Source: Phycisphaerales bacterium
Lineage (GTDB): Bacteria; Planctomycetota; Phycisphaerae; Phycisphaerales; UBA1924
Length of the DNA: 64,000 bases
NCBI GenBank assembly: GCA_020847175.1
Contig: JADLCM010000024.1
Coordinates: 1-64,000 of the forward strand
Direction: 5' to 3'
Below are positions 3,210-60,847 of this stretch, in pieces. Numbering within the stretch: the first letter of the stretch is position 1; each line of letters begins with the position of its first letter. The notes under the pieces are model-generated. The model ran no database searches. It was given only the letters and a program-made list of their open reading frames with translations, and was not told the origin of the DNA. Both the position numbers and the translations under genes were made by a program.

Positions 3210-3237
3210 ATTATTGAAATATGCTCACAGATTTCAA
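3210..3237 (-). promoter_or_regulatory. Promoter and overlapping operator of the HTH/protease operon
   Basis: On the minus strand TTGAAA (3237-3232) and AATAAT (3215-3210) are separated by 16 bp, each 5/6 to the sigma-70 consensus. A perfect inverted repeat TTGAAAT/ATTTCAA (3237-3231 and 3220-3214) overlaps both boxes. The expected transcript starts 0-3 nt before ATG 3201. The stretch is markedly AT-rich against its surroundings. Confidence 0.7.
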
Positions 3238-4399: not shown

Positions 4400-4405
4400 A
4401 CGGTA
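4400..4405 (-). promoter_or_regulatory. Candidate -10 (TACCGT) 5 nt before GTG 4394
   Basis: TACCGT on the minus strand at 4405-4400 is followed by 5 nt and then the SD-less GTG start. This is the same geometry as the TACGAT-N5-GTG of lipB and dus in this window. No convincing -35 is seen. Confidence 0.4.
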
Positions 4406-7974: not shown

Positions 7975-8868
7975 CTACATCGCCCCGCCCGCAAAGACGA
8001 TTCGCTTGCGCTTGAGGCGCGGGTCCGGCTCAGGCACCGCGCTCAGGAGCGACCGCGTGTACATTTCGCGCGGCGCGCCGATGATCGCTTCACGCGGTCC
8101 GAACTCCACGATCTTGCCCTTGTACATCACCGCGATGTTCTTGCACACGTGCTGAATCACCGCCATCGAGTGGCTGATGAAGAGGTACGACAGCCCGAAC
8201 TCCGACTGCAAGTCGGTCAGCAGGTTGATGATCTGGGCCTGGATCGAGACGTCAAGCGCGCTCGTCGGCTCATCGCACACAATGAACCGCGGGCTCAGCG
8301 CCAGCGCCCGCGCGATCCCGATGCGCTGGCGCTGGCCGCCGGAGAACTCGTGCGGGTAGCGATCGGCGGCCTGCTTGGGCATGCCGCAGCGCACCAGCAG
8401 TTCTTCAACCTTGGCCCGCAGCTCGTCTCGGCTCTTCGCCAGCCCGTGCACCACGAGCGGCTCACCCACAATGTTCTGGATGCGCATGCGCGGGTTGAGC
8501 GACCCGGCAGGGTCCTGGAAGATAATCTGCATGTCGCGCCGGAGCAGGCGCATCGTCTGGTTGGATGCGTCAAACACATTCTTGCCGTCAAAGACCACCC
8601 GCCCCGAGGTGGGGGGAATCAGCCGCAGAATCGTCCGACCCACCGTCGTCTTGCCGCACCCCGATTCACCGACCAGGCCCAGGGTTTCCCCCTTGGCGAT
8701 GTTGAACGACACCCCGTCGACGGCCTTCACGAACCCCGAGACGCGCTGAAGCAGCCCGGTCCGGATCGGGAAGTGCGTGCACAGATCAGACACCGAGAGC
8801 AGCGCGCCCGCGGAAGCGCCCCCGGGTGCTGACGGGGCGGCGGGCGAAGCATGGGCGGAAGAGGTCAT
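7975..8868 (-). CDS. Oligopeptide/dipeptide-type ABC transporter ATP-binding protein (OppF/DppF-like)
   Basis: A 297-residue protein from ATG 8868. Residues about 24-270 form an ABC ATPase. The Walker A is GESGCGKTT, the Q-loop is IIFQDPAGSLNP (typical of OppF/DppF), the signature is FSGGQRQRIGIARAL, the Walker B is FIVCDEPTSALDVSIQ, and the switch histidine is in ISHSMAV. The C-terminal GPREAIIGAPREMYTRSLLSAVP is the oligopeptide-transporter extension. It would energise uptake of peptides or related solutes. No permease or binding-protein genes are adjacent, so its partners lie elsewhere. It is divergent from lipB. TATCAT (8880-8875) lies 6 nt before the ATG, so the message may be leaderless. 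Confidence 0.93.
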   Translation of the reverse strand: MTSSAHASPAAPSAPGGASAGALLSVSDLCTHFPIRTGLLQRVSGFVKAVDGVSFNIAKGETLGLVGESGCGKTTVGRTILRLIPPTSGRVVFDGKNVFDASNQTMRLLRRDMQIIFQDPAGSLNPRMRIQNIVGEPLVVHGLAKSRDELRAKVEELLVRCGMPKQAADRYPHEFSGGQRQRIGIARALALSPRFIVCDEPTSALDVSIQAQIINLLTDLQSEFGLSYLFISHSMAVIQHVCKNIAVMYKGKIVEFGPREAIIGAPREMYTRSLLSAVPEPDPRLKRKRIVFAGGAM

Positions 8869-8874
8869 GGCTCC

Positions 8875-8880
8875 ATGATA
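8875..8880 (-). promoter_or_regulatory. Candidate -10 (TATCAT) 6 nt before ATG 8868
   Basis: TATCAT matches the sigma-70 -10 consensus at 5/6 and is separated by 6 nt from the ABC ATPase start. That leaves no room for a leader with a normal ribosome-binding site. Confidence 0.45.
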
Positions 8881-8932
8881 CCGAGGGTTCACGTCACAGG
8901 CCCGGGCGCGGGCGCCGAGGCCAGATCCTCCG

Positions 8933-8938
8933 TACGAT
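8933..8938 (+). promoter_or_regulatory. Candidate -10 (TACGAT) 5 nt before lipB GTG
   Basis: TACGAT is followed by CTTGG and GTG 8944, with no Shine-Dalgarno sequence. The identical hexamer and spacing precede the dus gene at 41102. Confidence 0.45.
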
Positions 8939-8943
8939 CTTGG

Positions 8944-9648
8944 GTGCAGACGCCGGACCCCAGCACCCTCCCGCTCGTTGACCTCGGGCGCATGGCCTAC
9001 CGCGCGGCGTTCGAGCGGCAGGAGCGGGAGTTGGAATCTCTCGTCGCCGCACGTCCATCGGGTCGGCTGGGGGTCATCTTGGTCGTTGAACACGACCCAG
9101 TGGTCACGGTGAGCCGGAGGGGGGAAAACACCGGGAACCTGCTCAGCACGCCTGCCCATCTTGCCGCCCTCGGCGTCGACGTGGCCCCGACCGATCGCGG
9201 CGGAGACATCACCTATCACGGTCCCGGGCAGATCGTGGTCTACCCAATCCTCGACCTAGAAGTCCTTCGCCTGAAAGTGGGGGACTACCTGCGGCTGCTC
9301 GAACAGGCCGTGATGGACACGTGCGCTGCGTTCGGCCTGCCCACCGTGCGCGACCCCGAGGCCACGGGCGTCTGGACCCTTGGCCCGGTGGGTGGGCCGC
9401 ACGCCAAGGTTTGCGCGATCGGTATCCGCGTCCGTCGATGGGCCACCTTGCACGGCCTGGCCCTGAATGTGTCAACGAACCTCGACCATTTCGCGCACAT
9501 CGTGCCTTGCGGACTGGTCGGACGACCCGTCACCAGCCTCGCGCGCGAGCTGGGGCCGGTGTGCCCGGGCATGGACCGGGTGAAATCGACCCTTGCGGGC
9601 AACCTTTCGGCGCTGCTTCTCGCTTCGCAGGGCGTCACGCGCCGGTAA
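8944..9648 (+). CDS. lipB: Octanoyl-[acyl-carrier-protein]:protein N-octanoyltransferase
   Basis: About 234 residues from GTG 8944. LipB motifs are present in order: VVEHDPVVTVSRRG, the substrate-binding RGGDITYHGPGQIVVYPI, and AKVCAIGIRV, HGLALNV and FAHIVPCGL, which carries the conserved catalytic-site residues including the Cys after HIVP. LipB moves octanoyl from ACP to lipoyl domains, the first step of lipoate cofactor synthesis. The start is uncertain. ATG 8851 and ATG 8875 are in frame, but the first overlaps the divergent ABC gene. GTG 8944 gives the normal family length and lies just before the first conserved block (LVDLGRMAYRAAF). lipA is not in the window. Confidence 0.92.
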   Translation: MQTPDPSTLPLVDLGRMAYRAAFERQERELESLVAARPSGRLGVILVVEHDPVVTVSRRGENTGNLLSTPAHLAALGVDVAPTDRGGDITYHGPGQIVVYPILDLEVLRLKVGDYLRLLEQAVMDTCAAFGLPTVRDPEATGVWTLGPVGGPHAKVCAIGIRVRRWATLHGLALNVSTNLDHFAHIVPCGLVGRPVTSLARELGPVCPGMDRVKSTLAGNLSALLLASQGVTRR

Positions 9649-23651: not shown

Positions 23652-26323
<2,672 letters not shown>

Positions 26324-26378
26324 GGCGCATGGCAAGCCGGCGATCCACCGTTGGCAGCCGCGTCGGTGACGGAGACGA

Positions 26379-26657
26379 TCACCGCCGCACTTCAAAGGCC
26401 AACTCATCGCGAGTCGGGAGGGAGCGTGCCTCGACGCTCGACAGGTTGGCGTTCATGCGTGCGCGGACGGCATCGACGAAGAGATCGAGTTCCAGAGGTG
26501 TCCCTTGCGCCTCCATGCGCACGGATCCGTCCGGTTCATTGCGGACCCAGCCCGTGACCTCGAAGCTCTGCGCGATGGTGCGGGTGGTGGCGCGAAAGCC
26601 GACCCCCTGCACCCTTCCCCGAAACACGATCTCTCGACGTTCGATGCTTTCGGGCAC
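26379..26657 (-). CDS. acyP: Acylphosphatase
   Basis: A 92-residue protein from GTG 26657, with AGGAG 7 nt upstream. The family core GRVQGVGFRATT holds the catalytic Arg (R22), and GWVRNEPDGSVRMEAQG holds the catalytic Asn (N40). The helix LELDLFVDAVRA follows. Length and motif spacing match the family, in which the enzyme hydrolyses carboxyl-phosphate bonds such as in acetyl phosphate. Upstream in-frame codons to 26774 lack similarity and an RBS. It is convergent with the SDR-like gene. Confidence 0.92.
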   Translation of the reverse strand: MPESIERREIVFRGRVQGVGFRATTRTIAQSFEVTGWVRNEPDGSVRMEAQGTPLELDLFVDAVRARMNANLSSVEARSLPTRDELAFEVRR

Positions 26658-27039
26658 GAGATGCTCCTGAATCGGGGGCGAGGCGACGATGCACCGGCAG
26701 GCGCCGTTCTCGGACCGGCGCCGCACGCCCGCATTGTTTCCGGTCCGGCCCGGGACAATCGTTCCAGGGGTCATGCTCCGCGCAAGCCTCAGAATCGCAA
26801 TCCCCCGTGCTCCCTTCCTAACCTGTGGTAGCCTTGAGTGACAGCGCGACTTTGGTCCGGTCGGCGGATACTCCTCCGCGCGGGCATGTCAATCTCTCGC
26901 GCTGCGAAGATCGGGTGTCGGGTGCGCACGGGGGCGCATGGCTCCGGGGCGGGTCGCCGCGCCGGGAGCGTTGAGAAGTTGGAAGGCCGGGCGGCTACGG
27001 TCCCGCGGCGCGGGAGTGGCCGCGCCGGCGAGAGGTTGC
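26658..27039. other. 382-bp intergenic region between acylphosphatase and dnaG
   Basis: No gene is recognised. A short hairpin, GCGGA-TACTCC-TCCGC, lies near 26864-26879, and an ATTGT/ACAAT inverted repeat flanks a CCGG-rich stretch near 26735-26760. It should hold the divergent promoters of acylphosphatase and the dnaG-rpoD operon, but no -35/-10 pair stands out. Confidence 0.4.
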
Positions 27040-28862
27040 GTGCCCGTGAGTTCGTTCATTCACGATAACACCGACCGGGACCGCGTGCGCCACGCCAGCG
27101 ACATCGTTCGCATCGTGGGGGAGGCGGTGCGCCTGAAGCCACGAGGGCGCGAATTTGTCGGCCTGTGCCCCTTCCACGACGACCACAACCCGTCCATGAG
27201 CGTCATCCCGGCGAAGCAGATCTTTCACTGCTTCGTGTGCGGCACGGGTGGAGACGTTTTCACATTCGTCCGGAAGATGCACGGGATGGAGTTCCGTGAA
27301 GCGCTGGAGTACCTTGCCGAGCGGGCGGGCGTCACCCTCACGCCCCGACGGGCGCCCGCGCCGGGGGGCGAGCCGGCGATTTCGCGCCGTGACCTCCTCA
27401 ACATCAACGCCTTCGCTTCGGAGTTCTACCAGTCGGTCCTGCGCCACCCCGAGCACGGCGCAGCGGGGCGCAACGTGATCGCGAAGCGCGCGATTGCGCC
27501 CGAGATGGTCGCCCGGTTCGGCCTCGGTGTCGCCCCGGATCGGTGGGACGGCCTGATCCTCAAGGCACGGGCTTCTGGTGTCAGCGAAGACCAGCTCGTG
27601 GCGGCGGGCCTCATCAGGCGGCGCGAGGGCGCCCCGGGATGCTACGACCAGCTTCGCAACCGGCTGATCTTCCCGATCCAGGACCAGGTCGGGCGCGTGA
27701 TCGCCTTCGGCGCCCGCAAGATCGACCCCGAAGACGAGCCCAAGTACCTCAACAGCCCGGAGACCCCGGTCTTTGACAAGTCGAGCACTCTGTACGGCCT
27801 GCACCAGGCGAGCCAGTCGATCCAGCACCAGCGGGCGGCGATCATCACCGAGGGGTACACCGATGTCATCACCTGCCACCAGGCCGGGTTCACCACGGCG
27901 GTCGCGGCCCTGGGCACCGCGCTCACGGCGCGCCATGCTTCAATGCTCCGGCGGCTCTGCGAGACGATCATCCTCCTGTTCGACTCCGATGATGCCGGTC
28001 AACGGGCCGCCGACCGCGCTGCCGAAGTGTTTTTCTCCGAACCTGTCGATGTCCGTGTCTGCACGCTCGGCTCGTTCACCGACGCGAAGGATCCGGATGA
28101 ACTCCTCAAGCGAGAGGGGGGGGCGGAGCGATTCCGCGCCGCGCTGGATGCCAGCATCGACCTGCTGGAGTTTCGTTATCGCCGTCTCGCAGACTTGGCG
28201 CGGGGCAAGGGCCCCGCAGCGCTTCAGAAGCTGCTCGAAGACGAGCTGGCACGCCTGGTCGAGTTGGGGCTCTCCAGTGTCGATCCGCTCCGCCGGGCGC
28301 TCATCATGCGCCGTCTGAGCGAGATTTCCGGGCTCTCGACCGACGTGATCGCTCGGGCGACACCGACCGGGCGGCGGCCCCGCGCGTTCACTGCCGAGGC
28401 CGTCCCGCAGCGCGCTGCGCCCGCGCGGCTCCTCCCCGCCGATTGGCTCCTCGGCGTCGCGATCATCGAGCCCGCGCGTCGCGCCGAGTTGACGCCGGAC
28501 GAGCGGTCCATGCTTGCGAGCGCGGCCTACTCTTCAGAAGTGCTGGCCCGTGCCGTTCGACACATCGAGGAGGCTGAACGCGAGGGGCGCGCGTGCGCGC
28601 TCAGCGATCTGCTCGCGAGGCTCGAAGAGCCCGCCGACGCATCAACGCTCGTGGACCTGCACCTTCGCGTCGAACGCGAGACCGAGGCCGATGCGGAACG
28701 CCTCGGACGGCTCTGGAGAGACTGCCTCGCGCAGGTGAGGCGTGCGGCCGGCGACGGCGATGGTGAGGGGTCGGCTCTCGCGCGCCTCGCCGCGGCCCGG
28801 AACAGGCACGCCGCCCTCGGCGGCGACCCCCGGGCCATGCCCAAGCCGAGGAGGGCGGAACC

Positions 28863-31345: not shown

Positions 31346-31351
31346 AGCGTA
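31346..31351 (-). promoter_or_regulatory. Candidate -10 (TACGCT) 5 nt before ATG 31340
   Basis: TACGCT-TCCCC-ATG on the minus strand has the same spacing as the other proposed leaderless starts. Confidence 0.35.
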
Positions 31352-38518: not shown

Positions 38519-38524
38519 TATCCT
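38519..38524 (+). promoter_or_regulatory. Candidate -10 (TATCCT) 7 nt before GTG 38532
   Basis: GGCTATCCTCCCCCTCGTG here resembles GGCTACCCTGCCCCGCGTG before the beta-lactamase-fold gene at 60834. In both cases the GTG is the start codon. Confidence 0.45.
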
Positions 38525-38531
38525 CCCCCTC

Positions 38532-39395
38532 GTGGAGGTTTGTTCCGCCGTGATCCCGACGCGCCCAGATGAATCGGACCTGCCAGCCATCGAACTGGGG
38601 TCGTCGCGCGCCTCGGTGGTGGGGCCGACCGGGCGTCCCGTCGCGGTCGACATTCTGGAGGCAGGCGGGGGGCGCCCTGTGATCTTCCTCAGCGGGCTCA
38701 TCGGCCAGAACCTGCACTGGGTGCCGGTCATCCGGCGCGCTGCCCGGAGCGCACGGTGCATGGCGGTGCAGGTGCCGCTGCTGGAACTCCACGGCGACGA
38801 CTGCGGAGTTCCCGGCGTCCGCGATATGATCGCCGGATTCATCCGCAGTACTCTGCGGTGCCCCGCAACGCTTGTGGGCAGCTCGTTCGGCGGGCACGTG
38901 GCCCTTCGCGTCGCGATCGAACAGCCCGAACTGGTTGATGGTCTTGTGCTCACGGGGTCGAGCGGGTTGGCCGAGAAGCCGATCCTCGGCGCGGAGATGC
39001 CACAGAAGTCGCGCGACTACATCGAAGAGAAGGTGGCCGAGCTCTTCCACGATCGGGCCCGCATGTCGCAGAGCGATGTGGACCGGGCGCACTCCGAGCT
39101 GAACGACCGGTCGAAGGCTCGCGCCATGATCCGGCTCAGCCGCTCCTGCCGGCGTGACCACGTGGGCGACGAACTGCACCGCATCAAGGCGCCGACCCTG
39201 GTGCTCTGGGGGCGCCAGGACATCGTCACGCCCCCGGAGGCCGCGAGCGAGTTCGCCGAGCGCATCCCGGATGCCCGTCTCGTCTGGCTGGAGCGATGCG
39301 GCCACGCGCCGATGATTGAACGGCCCGACGAGTTCTCCGACGCGCTGGTTTCCTTCGTGGGCGAGCTCAACGCGGCCTCGCCCCGGCGGGCCTGA
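38532..39395 (+). CDS. Alpha/beta-hydrolase fold protein
   Basis: About 287 residues from GTG 38532, or 281 from GTG 38550, which has GGAGG but 11 nt away. The alpha/beta-hydrolase motifs are FLSGLIGQNLHW (oxyanion region), the nucleophile elbow GSSFGGH with Ser118, the acid in LWGRQDIVTPP and the catalytic His in ERCGHAPMIE. The cap region (about 155-210) is helical. Substrates may be esters or thioesters. It is followed 3 nt later by the GH3 gene, suggesting a joint role in handling acyl or acid conjugates. Confidence 0.85.
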   Translation: MEVCSAVIPTRPDESDLPAIELGSSRASVVGPTGRPVAVDILEAGGGRPVIFLSGLIGQNLHWVPVIRRAARSARCMAVQVPLLELHGDDCGVPGVRDMIAGFIRSTLRCPATLVGSSFGGHVALRVAIEQPELVDGLVLTGSSGLAEKPILGAEMPQKSRDYIEEKVAELFHDRARMSQSDVDRAHSELNDRSKARAMIRLSRSCRRDHVGDELHRIKAPTLVLWGRQDIVTPPEAASEFAERIPDARLVWLERCGHAPMIERPDEFSDALVSFVGELNAASPRRA

Positions 39396-41101: not shown

Positions 41102-41107
41102 TACGAT
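41102..41107 (+). promoter_or_regulatory. Candidate -10 (TACGAT) 5 nt before dus GTG
   Basis: TACGAT-CCGGC-GTG has the same geometry and hexamer as lipB. The GH3 stop is only 18 nt upstream, so the gene may have its own promoter despite close spacing. Confidence 0.45.
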
Positions 41108-41112
41108 CCGGC

Positions 41113-42246
41113 GTGCTCGGTGTTCCCCTCCAGATCGGCCCGGTGCGCCTCGGCACGAACCTCCTGCTCGCGCCCATTGCGAGGTACTGCGACCTCGCCT
41201 TTCGCATCACATGCCGTGAGGCGAGCCGCATCTCCCCTGGCCTGGCGGGGGCCTCCACGGGCGTCGGTCTCGCTTGCACCGATCTTCTGAGCCCCGCAGG
41301 GCTGCTCCGCGGTTCGCAGCACTCGATCGACCTCGCCCGCACGCACGATCTCGATCGCCCCGTCGGCATGCAGATTTACGGCAGCGACCCCGCGATCATG
41401 GCCGAGGGCGCGAAGTGGGCCGCGGATCACGGCGCCACGGTCGTTGACATCAACATGGGCTGCCCGGTGGACAAGGTCACCAAGACCGACGGCGGCTCCA
41501 GACTCATGTGCGATTTCGGCAAGGCTGTGCATATCGCGGAGGCCTGTCGATCGGCGCTTCCTTCCGGGGTGCCCCTGACCTGCAAGATGCGTCTCGGCTG
41601 GAGTTGCCCGGACGATGCACCCGCGCTCGCATGCCGCCTCACGGATGTCGGCGTCGCCGCGATTACGGTGCACGGACGCACAACCGATCAGCGCTTCAAG
41701 GGCCGCGCCGATCGAGCCAAGATCAAGCGGGTCGTCGACGCGGTTCGCGCCCACACAGGCGGCCGGTCCGGCGGGCCGATTCCGGTGATCGGGAACGGTG
41801 ACGTTACCGATGCCGACTCATGCCTTGGGATGATGGCCGAAACCGGGTGCGCCGGAGTGATGATCGGGCGCGGCGCGCTGTCGCACCCGTGGCTTTTTCG
41901 AGACTGCTGGGCAGCCCAAGTCCGGCGTGCAGCGCAGATGCGCGGCGAGCCGGACCCCGGCATGCCGGCCGCTCCAACTTCCGAAGAGATTATCGAGATC
42001 ATCCGGAAGTACTTCCATCGGATGCTGGAGTTCCGCGACACTCACTACGCGATGCACATGATCCGCTCGCGGATCAGTTGGATGGCCAGGCCGCTCTCGG
42101 CCCCGGGAGAACCCGGGGTCAAGCCGTTCAAGGAGGCCGTTCGCCTCGCACCCGGGCCGGCCGAGGTTGTCCGGGCGTTCGACGAGTTCATAGCCGGGGG
42201 GTTGCGGGGCGGGCTGGCGGAAGAACACGAACCCGCGGAAACATGA
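41113..42246 (+). CDS. dus: tRNA-dihydrouridine synthase
   Basis: A 377-residue protein from GTG 41113. It is an FMN-dependent TIM-barrel: LLLAPIARYCDLAFR, GMQIYGSDP, the active-site DINMGCPVDKVTKTDGGS with the catalytic Cys in GCP, CKMRLGW, TVHGRTTDQRFKG, PVIGNGDVTDAD and GVMIGRGALSHPWLF (phosphate of FMN). The C-terminal helical domain (about 270-377) binds tRNA. Dus enzymes reduce uridines in the tRNA D loop. DusB versus DusA/C cannot be assigned safely. It lies where secE-nusG would be expected, directly upstream of rplK. Confidence 0.93.
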   Translation: MLGVPLQIGPVRLGTNLLLAPIARYCDLAFRITCREASRISPGLAGASTGVGLACTDLLSPAGLLRGSQHSIDLARTHDLDRPVGMQIYGSDPAIMAEGAKWAADHGATVVDINMGCPVDKVTKTDGGSRLMCDFGKAVHIAEACRSALPSGVPLTCKMRLGWSCPDDAPALACRLTDVGVAAITVHGRTTDQRFKGRADRAKIKRVVDAVRAHTGGRSGGPIPVIGNGDVTDADSCLGMMAETGCAGVMIGRGALSHPWLFRDCWAAQVRRAAQMRGEPDPGMPAAPTSEEIIEIIRKYFHRMLEFRDTHYAMHMIRSRISWMARPLSAPGEPGVKPFKEAVRLAPGPAEVVRAFDEFIAGGLRGGLAEEHEPAET

Positions 42247-59968: not shown

Positions 59969-60834
59969 GGGGAGGCGTCTCCGATTCCGGCAAAGAGCGA
60001 GGGCGCGGCCACTCGGGCGGGCACACGCACGGCGGCGGGGCGGGCGGGCGAACCCGTGAGTTCGATCCAGGGCGTGGGCTCGTTCTGGCTGCTGAGCAGG
60101 AGCTCGTACGACGCCCCGGCGTGCGGCGCGCGGGCGAGTTCGGGCCGGTTGCACTCGCGCGAGAGGTGCAGCAGCACCACCGAGGCACGGGGTTCGGTCC
60201 GGCGCACGGCATCGGCGCACTGCGCGTTGCTCAGGTGTCCCGACCCGCCCATGATGCGGTTCTTCAGGAACGCCGGCCGGGGCGACGCGGCCTGCATCCG
60301 CGGGCAGTAGTTGCTCTCGATCGCCAGCAGGTCGACGCCCGCCAAGTGCGACACGAGGTCGTTGGTCATGTGCCCGAGATCGGTGGCAAAGCCGATGCTC
60401 ACGCCGGGGAACTCGAATCGCAGCGCGGCGCTCCCCCTCTGGTCGTGGGCGGCGAGCGCCGCGCGGAGCTCGATGCCCGGGGCCAGCATGAACGAATCGT
60501 CAAAGACCTCGGACCGGCGGGTGAGGGCGCCGCACTTGTCCGCCCACTTCACGTGGCGCCGATGCAGGCGCAGCGTGGGCCCCTCCCAGGGGCGGGGGTT
60601 CCAGGCGGGGCGCCAGTGATCCTGATCGAAGTGGGTGATGACGATGTCGGTGATGTGCTGGAGGCCGAGGCCCCGCGCGTGCAAGAGGCGCTTGGTCCGC
60701 TGCGGGGAGAAACCGAGGTCGATGAGGATGACGCGCCGGACCCCCGGGCCGCGGACATCCAGCACCGAGCAGTTGCCCCCCGAACCGCTGCCCAGGACGC
60801 AGAACCTGGCCGAGAATGTCGAGGCTGCGTGCAC
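59965..60834 (-). CDS. Metallo-beta-lactamase-fold protein (YycJ/WalJ-like)
   Basis: A 289-residue protein from GTG 60834. The start FCVLGSGSGGNCSVLDV and VILIDLGFSPQRTKRLL, then ITDIVITHFDQDHW, follow the YycJ/WalJ layout. The metal motif HxHxDH is altered to HFDQDH, the second His being Asp, and downstream ligands GFATDLGHMT and LLAIESNYCPRM are in place. The C-terminal His motif LHLSRECNRPELA is also present. YycJ relatives are exonucleases or unknown hydrolases. The start GTG 60834 lies 7 nt after TACCCT with no Shine-Dalgarno sequence. Confidence 0.82.
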   Translation of the reverse strand: MHAASTFSARFCVLGSGSGGNCSVLDVRGPGVRRVILIDLGFSPQRTKRLLHARGLGLQHITDIVITHFDQDHWRPAWNPRPWEGPTLRLHRRHVKWADKCGALTRRSEVFDDSFMLAPGIELRAALAAHDQRGSAALRFEFPGVSIGFATDLGHMTNDLVSHLAGVDLLAIESNYCPRMQAASPRPAFLKNRIMGGSGHLSNAQCADAVRRTEPRASVVLLHLSRECNRPELARAPHAGASYELLLSSQNEPTPWIELTGSPARPAAVRVPARVAAPSLFAGIGDASP

Positions 60835-60841
60835 GCGGGGC

Positions 60842-60847
60842 AGGGTA
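60842..60847 (-). promoter_or_regulatory. Candidate -10 (TACCCT) 7 nt before GTG 60834
   Basis: GGCTACCCTGCCCCGC-GTG, nearly the same as GGCTATCCTCCCCCTC-GTG upstream of the alpha/beta-hydrolase gene. Confidence 0.45.

Follow-up and report, generated by a model that had tools for sequence, protein, structure and literature searches.

Predicted leaderless genes behind TANNNT −10 boxes in a genome of the Phycisphaerales

Introduction

In leaderless mRNAs, ribosomes carrying the initiator tRNA bind a 5'-terminal AUG or GUG. The leaderless genes of Mycobacterium tuberculosis start with either codon and are preceded by TANNNT −10 boxes, the −35 element being weak or absent. The leaderless transcriptome of this organism is described as extensive by Cortes et al. 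2013 (PMC3898074). Zheng et al. 2011 (PMC3160421) defined a TA-like (TANNNT) leaderless class, strongest in Actinobacteria and Deinococcus-Thermus, and estimated that about 20% of Actinobacteria genes are leaderless; Planctomycetes are unnamed in the main text of that work. Nakagawa et al. 2017 (PMC5397173) ascribed the non-Shine-Dalgarno (non-SD) initiation of a planctomycete to 'leaderless mRNA and/or RPS1'.

Here we analyse a window of 64,000 nt, bases 1-64000 of contig C24, in the assembly (3.18 Mb, 70 contigs) of a Phycisphaerales bacterium. A preliminary description of this window had listed nine starts without a good ribosome-binding site, each following a TA...T hexamer at 5–8 nt, and had proposed that these hexamers were −10 boxes. 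All nine are present at that spacing (Table 1) and eight of them are TANNNT, the exception being the AATAAT before ATG 3201. As described, lipB and dus share both hexamer and spacing (TACGAT, 5 nt), and the segments at 38519 and 60847 have 16 of 19 bases in common, where about 15 had been counted.

Table 1. Hexamers, genes and intergenic region considered in the window (EM pLL, leaderless score in the mixture model).
Feature	Coordinates	Strand	Start codon and remarks	EM pLL
AATAAT (not TANNNT)	3210..3215	-	8 nt before ATG 3201 (HTH regulator); weak example	0.85
-10 hexamer TACCGT	4400..4405	-	5 nt before GTG 4394	0.98
ABC transporter ATPase, oligopeptide type	7975..8868	-	PF00005, PF08352; predicted leaderless ATG start	
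Divergent intergenic region	8869..8943	.	75 nt; two outward-facing predicted leaderless promoters	
-10 hexamer TATCAT	8875..8880	-	6 nt before ATG 8868	0.99
-10 hexamer TACGAT	8933..8938	+	5 nt before GTG 8944 (lipB)	1.00
lipB-like gene, LplA/B catalytic domain	8944..9648	+	PF21948, E=2.7e-35; predicted leaderless GTG start	
-10 hexamer TACGTT	25719..25724	+	5 nt before GTG 25730	
-10 hexamer TACGCT	31346..31351	-	5 nt before ATG 31340	
-10 hexamer TATCCT	38519..38524	+	7 nt before GTG 38532; GGAGG at 38534-38538	
-10 hexamer TACGAT	41102..41107	+	5 nt before GTG 41113 (dus)	
tRNA-dihydrouridine synthase gene (dus)	41113..42246	+	PF01207; predicted leaderless	0.99
-10 hexamer TACCCT	60842..60847	-	7 nt before GTG 60834 (metallo-beta-lactamase-fold gene)	0.80

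Results

TANNNT in front of Shine-Dalgarno-less starts

The scan covered 1.45 Mb of the host genome, and the start codons underlying all counts were those of our own gene caller, which relied on coding composition alone, with upstream signals unused, and yielded 1081 genes with a usable start. At these motif-free starts TANNNT was found in 48, 48, 13, 13 and 12 genes at 5, 6, 7, 8 and 9 nt, respectively, with almost none at 0–4 or 10–14 nt and about 5 genes per position farther upstream; the box lies about 10–12 bp before the start, as in the TA-like class. The hexamer stood at 5–8 nt in 118 of 694 SD-less starts (17.0%) and in 4 of 387 SD starts (1.0%; Fisher p=1e-19), and, again as in the TA-like class, the starts with the box mostly lack a Shine-Dalgarno sequence. 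Such a scan had been proposed earlier, with equal frequency before SD starts as the contrary outcome; enrichment is what was observed. The contrast held within divergent genes alone (p=3e-9), in which 24% of the SD-less starts carry TANNNT, and internal in-frame ATG/GTG codons, used as a control, were preceded by it in 0.16% of cases. On composition, 10.4 occurrences were expected at the 694 SD-less starts. The earlier estimate of a chance match at one start in fifty was fair, since local composition gives 1.5%, or about 1/67, and the class stands roughly tenfold above it. The raw counts set a strict lower bound of about 11% on the leaderless share. In-frame stop codons (TAA/TAG) were considered as a source of the TA peak and ruled out, the third base being mostly C or T and a spacing of 5 being out of frame.

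On the ribosomal side, the assembled 16S rRNA gene (C56:57608-58455) is truncated: it stops around model position 900, where the contig itself ends or nearly so, and the assembly therefore lacks its 3' anti-SD tail.

Identity of the hexamer

We identify the hexamer as the −10 box of a promoter. Twelve of the 21 predicted tRNA genes have TANNNT 8–11 nt before the mature 5' end, in the same words that occur before starts (TACGAT, TACGCT and TACACT), and, because tRNA genes are never translated, the signal must be one of transcription; the original proposal is thereby supported. Moreover, SD genes with long upstream gaps are enriched in TANNNT about 20–50 nt before the start, the pattern expected of promoters with a short leader. 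The positions flanking the hexamer are GC-rich, the signal being specific to TANNNT and not a general A/T enrichment, and no enrichment of a −35 consensus was found upstream of the leaderless boxes. A preference at the −1 base was considered as an initiator signal and dropped, since C is common before SD starts too and is not diagnostic. As a side observation, the distance at the tRNA genes implies pre-tRNA 5' leaders of only about 2–5 nt.

An unsupervised mixture model

The upstream sequences were also sorted by an unsupervised mixture model (EM) with three classes, namely SD, a second hexamer motif and none. The second motif was TACNCT, 90% of it at a spacing of 5–8 nt, and was reached from 8 of 11 seeds (six of the eight random ones and both T/A-bearing ones, TANNNT and reversed words), always as the solution of best likelihood; the GC-only seed and two random seeds halted at worse solutions. 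From shuffled upstream sequences the TACNCT motif was not recovered. Among the 1081 genes the classes took 63% (SD), 24% (leaderless-type) and 13% (none), the leaderless share being possibly inflated because a diffuse class takes 9–15% even with shuffled sequence; at a posterior >0.8 it comprised 202 genes (19%). The share was 32% in divergent genes and 11% in close tandem genes and is thus highest at the first genes of transcription units, as in the TA-like class. It appears, therefore, that about one fifth of the host genes can be predicted as leaderless, mainly those first in their transcription units, beside a majority with GGAG-type SD sequences. The remark that most such starts use GTG is true of the list; genome-wide, 86 of the 118 TANNNT starts are ATG, and the GTG excess is local to the list, since the leaderless class has 74% ATG and 26% GTG. 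In the window, seven of the nine listed starts were placed in the leaderless class, 25730 and 31340 being outside the caller's gene set, and single posteriors are not proof, since GTG 38532 scored 0.95 and yet is likely to belong to an SD-led gene.

Conservation in relatives

To the orthologue counts that follow the window's own copy contributes: TANNNT precedes an in-frame start by 5–8 nt in 23 of 30 dus orthologues across the order (about 1 expected), in 12 of 26 orthologues of the metallo-beta-lactamase-fold gene at 60834 (about 1.1 expected), in 25 of 64 lipB orthologues (about 2.8 expected) and in 5 of 15 orthologues of gene 4394. Among dus orthologues the flanks, the start codon and even the exact start position vary while the spacing stays. 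The lipB boxes are mostly within the order and have unrelated flanks; orthologues outside it are mostly without a box, with varying starts and GC content. In the footprints TA...T was counted 71 times versus 12 for AT...T, 8 for TT...A and 2 for T...TA; a further control pattern, T...AT, was confounded, as TACGAT matches it too.

The peak was also found in genome samples of relatives, with 13/89 SD-less versus 1/55 SD starts in a congener, 24/101 versus 1/64 and 20/101 versus 0/62 in two members of the family, and 22/130 versus 0/55 in pooled contigs, mostly Phycisphaerae MAGs. An order-level genome (G037) gave a weak excess only (10/92), and EM on its sample did not recover the motif; the 200-kb samples of relatives are too small for reliable EM percentages. 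The same pipeline on a Bacteroidota contig pool gave no TANNNT peak, the profile being flat (SD starts 24/785), and the host, with an SD class of 63% and a sharp peak, differs from SD-less initiation of the Bacteroidota type.

The nearest named relatives of LipB are in Phycisphaerales/Planctomycetota MAGs, at about 50–57% identity, which rules out the actinobacterial host hinted at by GC content and TANNNT. In the lipB of a distant planctomycete (L207, G080) one in-frame TGA was read through, which reflects a frameshift, an assembly error or a decayed gene.

The divergent region between lipB and the ABC ATPase gene

The motif-free caller also chose GTG 8944 for lipB. For the ATPase gene it preferred an inner start, 8793; ATG 8868 is supported by the mixture model and by homologues aligning from residue 3 onward. 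A GGAG lies only 2 nt upstream of this ATG, too close for normal SD action. Genome-wide, the median gap of divergent pairs is 75 nt if both genes are leaderless and 226 nt if both are SD-led (p=1e-4), as without leaders back-to-back promoters take little room; the region 8869-8943 is a typical doubly leaderless gap. Such gaps cluster near 49–52 and 75–78 nt, with three pairs each (contigs C2, C8, C13, C16, C19 and C24), possibly a spacing preference, though the pairs are few.

Other loci in the window

At 38519-38560 a conserved GGAGG lies just downstream of GTG 38532, and in the same-genus orthologue (G001) GGAGGTTTGT is kept while the GTG position is occupied by ACG, with a TACTAT box further upstream. 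Since the congener conserves GGAGGTTTGT but has no start codon there, the alpha/beta-hydrolase gene more likely starts at GTG 38550, SD-led behind the GGAGG and with a short leader, and TATCCT is probably its −10 box. Only 4 of 18 orthologues are leaderless-like.

The dus gene begins 28 nt past the gene upstream, so its promoter would be internal. For GTG 60834 the motif-free caller preferred an inner start, the outer one being supported by the mixture model and homology, and ATG 31340 is backed by several homologues aligning from residue 1. The gene at 25730-26323 is short and lies inside a long divergent gap (25571-27040) left by the caller; it has no Pfam domain and two detectable homologues among 26 relatives. 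Both homologues carry TANNNT 7 or 9 nt before ATG, and the gene is lineage-restricted and probably leaderless.

Discussion

We consider it highly probable that the SD-less genes with TANNNT at 5–8 nt are transcribed without a leader from −10 boxes of the housekeeping sigma factor. Boxes of the TAC/T-N-N-T type would sit just before the start codons, and RNA polymerase would start at, or within 1–2 bases of, the A or G of the start codon; indeed, from general promoter knowledge, a −10 box at 5–8 nt should set the beginning of transcription at or next to that codon, and leaders of 1–3 nt may occur. The resulting mRNAs, having no SD, would be bound through their 5'-terminal AUG or GUG by 30S or 70S ribosomes loaded with the initiator tRNA.

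The alternative that fares best, and which we nevertheless regard as very improbable for the class, is that genuine −10 boxes stand before wrongly annotated starts: the real start codons would lie downstream behind an SD, and the mRNAs would have ordinary short leaders. This is probably what happened at 38532, and TANNNT does occur about 20–50 nt upstream of SD genes; however, mis-annotation would not yield a sharp spacing of 5–8 nt to the start codon, nor would it explain why dus orthologues keep this spacing while their flanks diverge or why homologues frequently align from residue 1–3. Marginally less credible still is a role of the TA...T hexamer in translation instead of transcription, for instance as an A/T-rich or S1-binding enhancer of the kind proposed for SD-poor phyla. 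In such phyla, including a single planctomycete, the signals of leaderless and S1-dependent initiation were inseparable (Nakagawa et al., PMC5397173), but here the hexamer also precedes tRNA genes by a constant distance, is specific between GC-rich flanks, and becomes scarcer in front of close tandem genes, which would require an element of translation as much as any other gene. That the list is a product of chance or composition, hand-picked as it was out of many starts, can be virtually dismissed for the whole class in view of the excess over expectation, the flat Bacteroidota profile and the negative shuffled control, though individual members could still be chance matches.

The leaderless transcription predicted here resembles the TA-like class of Zheng et al. 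in the position of TANNNT, some 12 bp ahead of the start, the uninformative middle bases, the high GC, the lack of an SD and the share of about 20% of genes, and differs in its host, a member of the Phycisphaerales (Planctomycetota). With respect to M. tuberculosis, of an unrelated phylum, an extensive leaderless transcriptome was experimentally mapped there (Cortes et al.), whereas leaderless genes are only predicted here. The SD-poor planctomycete of Nakagawa et al. shares non-SD initiation within the phylum; in that single genome the signal was left unseparated, whereas here the promoter identity is backed by tRNA genes, spacing and conservation. In the open-access literature, to which the search was confined, neither leaderless genes of Phycisphaerae nor experimentally mapped transcription starts of any planctomycete were found, and the present case would therefore extend a known mechanism to a new lineage.

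A wider reading would make leaderless initiation a lineage-wide second mode in the Phycisphaerales that shapes genome layout, in which divergent leaderless pairs, spaced at 34–78 nt, lipB and the ABC ATPase gene included, would exclude two simultaneous polymerases and act as mutually exclusive or co-regulated switches, from promoters without a −35 consensus. We hold this to be unlikely.

These genes place the Phycisphaerales among the lineages in which a large share of genes is predicted to be expressed from leaderless mRNA, in a phylum that the surveys examined either skip or leave with its SD-less starts unseparated. Gene callers that consider SD sequences only will misplace starts in the MAGs of this mostly uncultured group, and the −10 consensus TACNCT, with no evident −35, is usable for promoter work in the Phycisphaerales.
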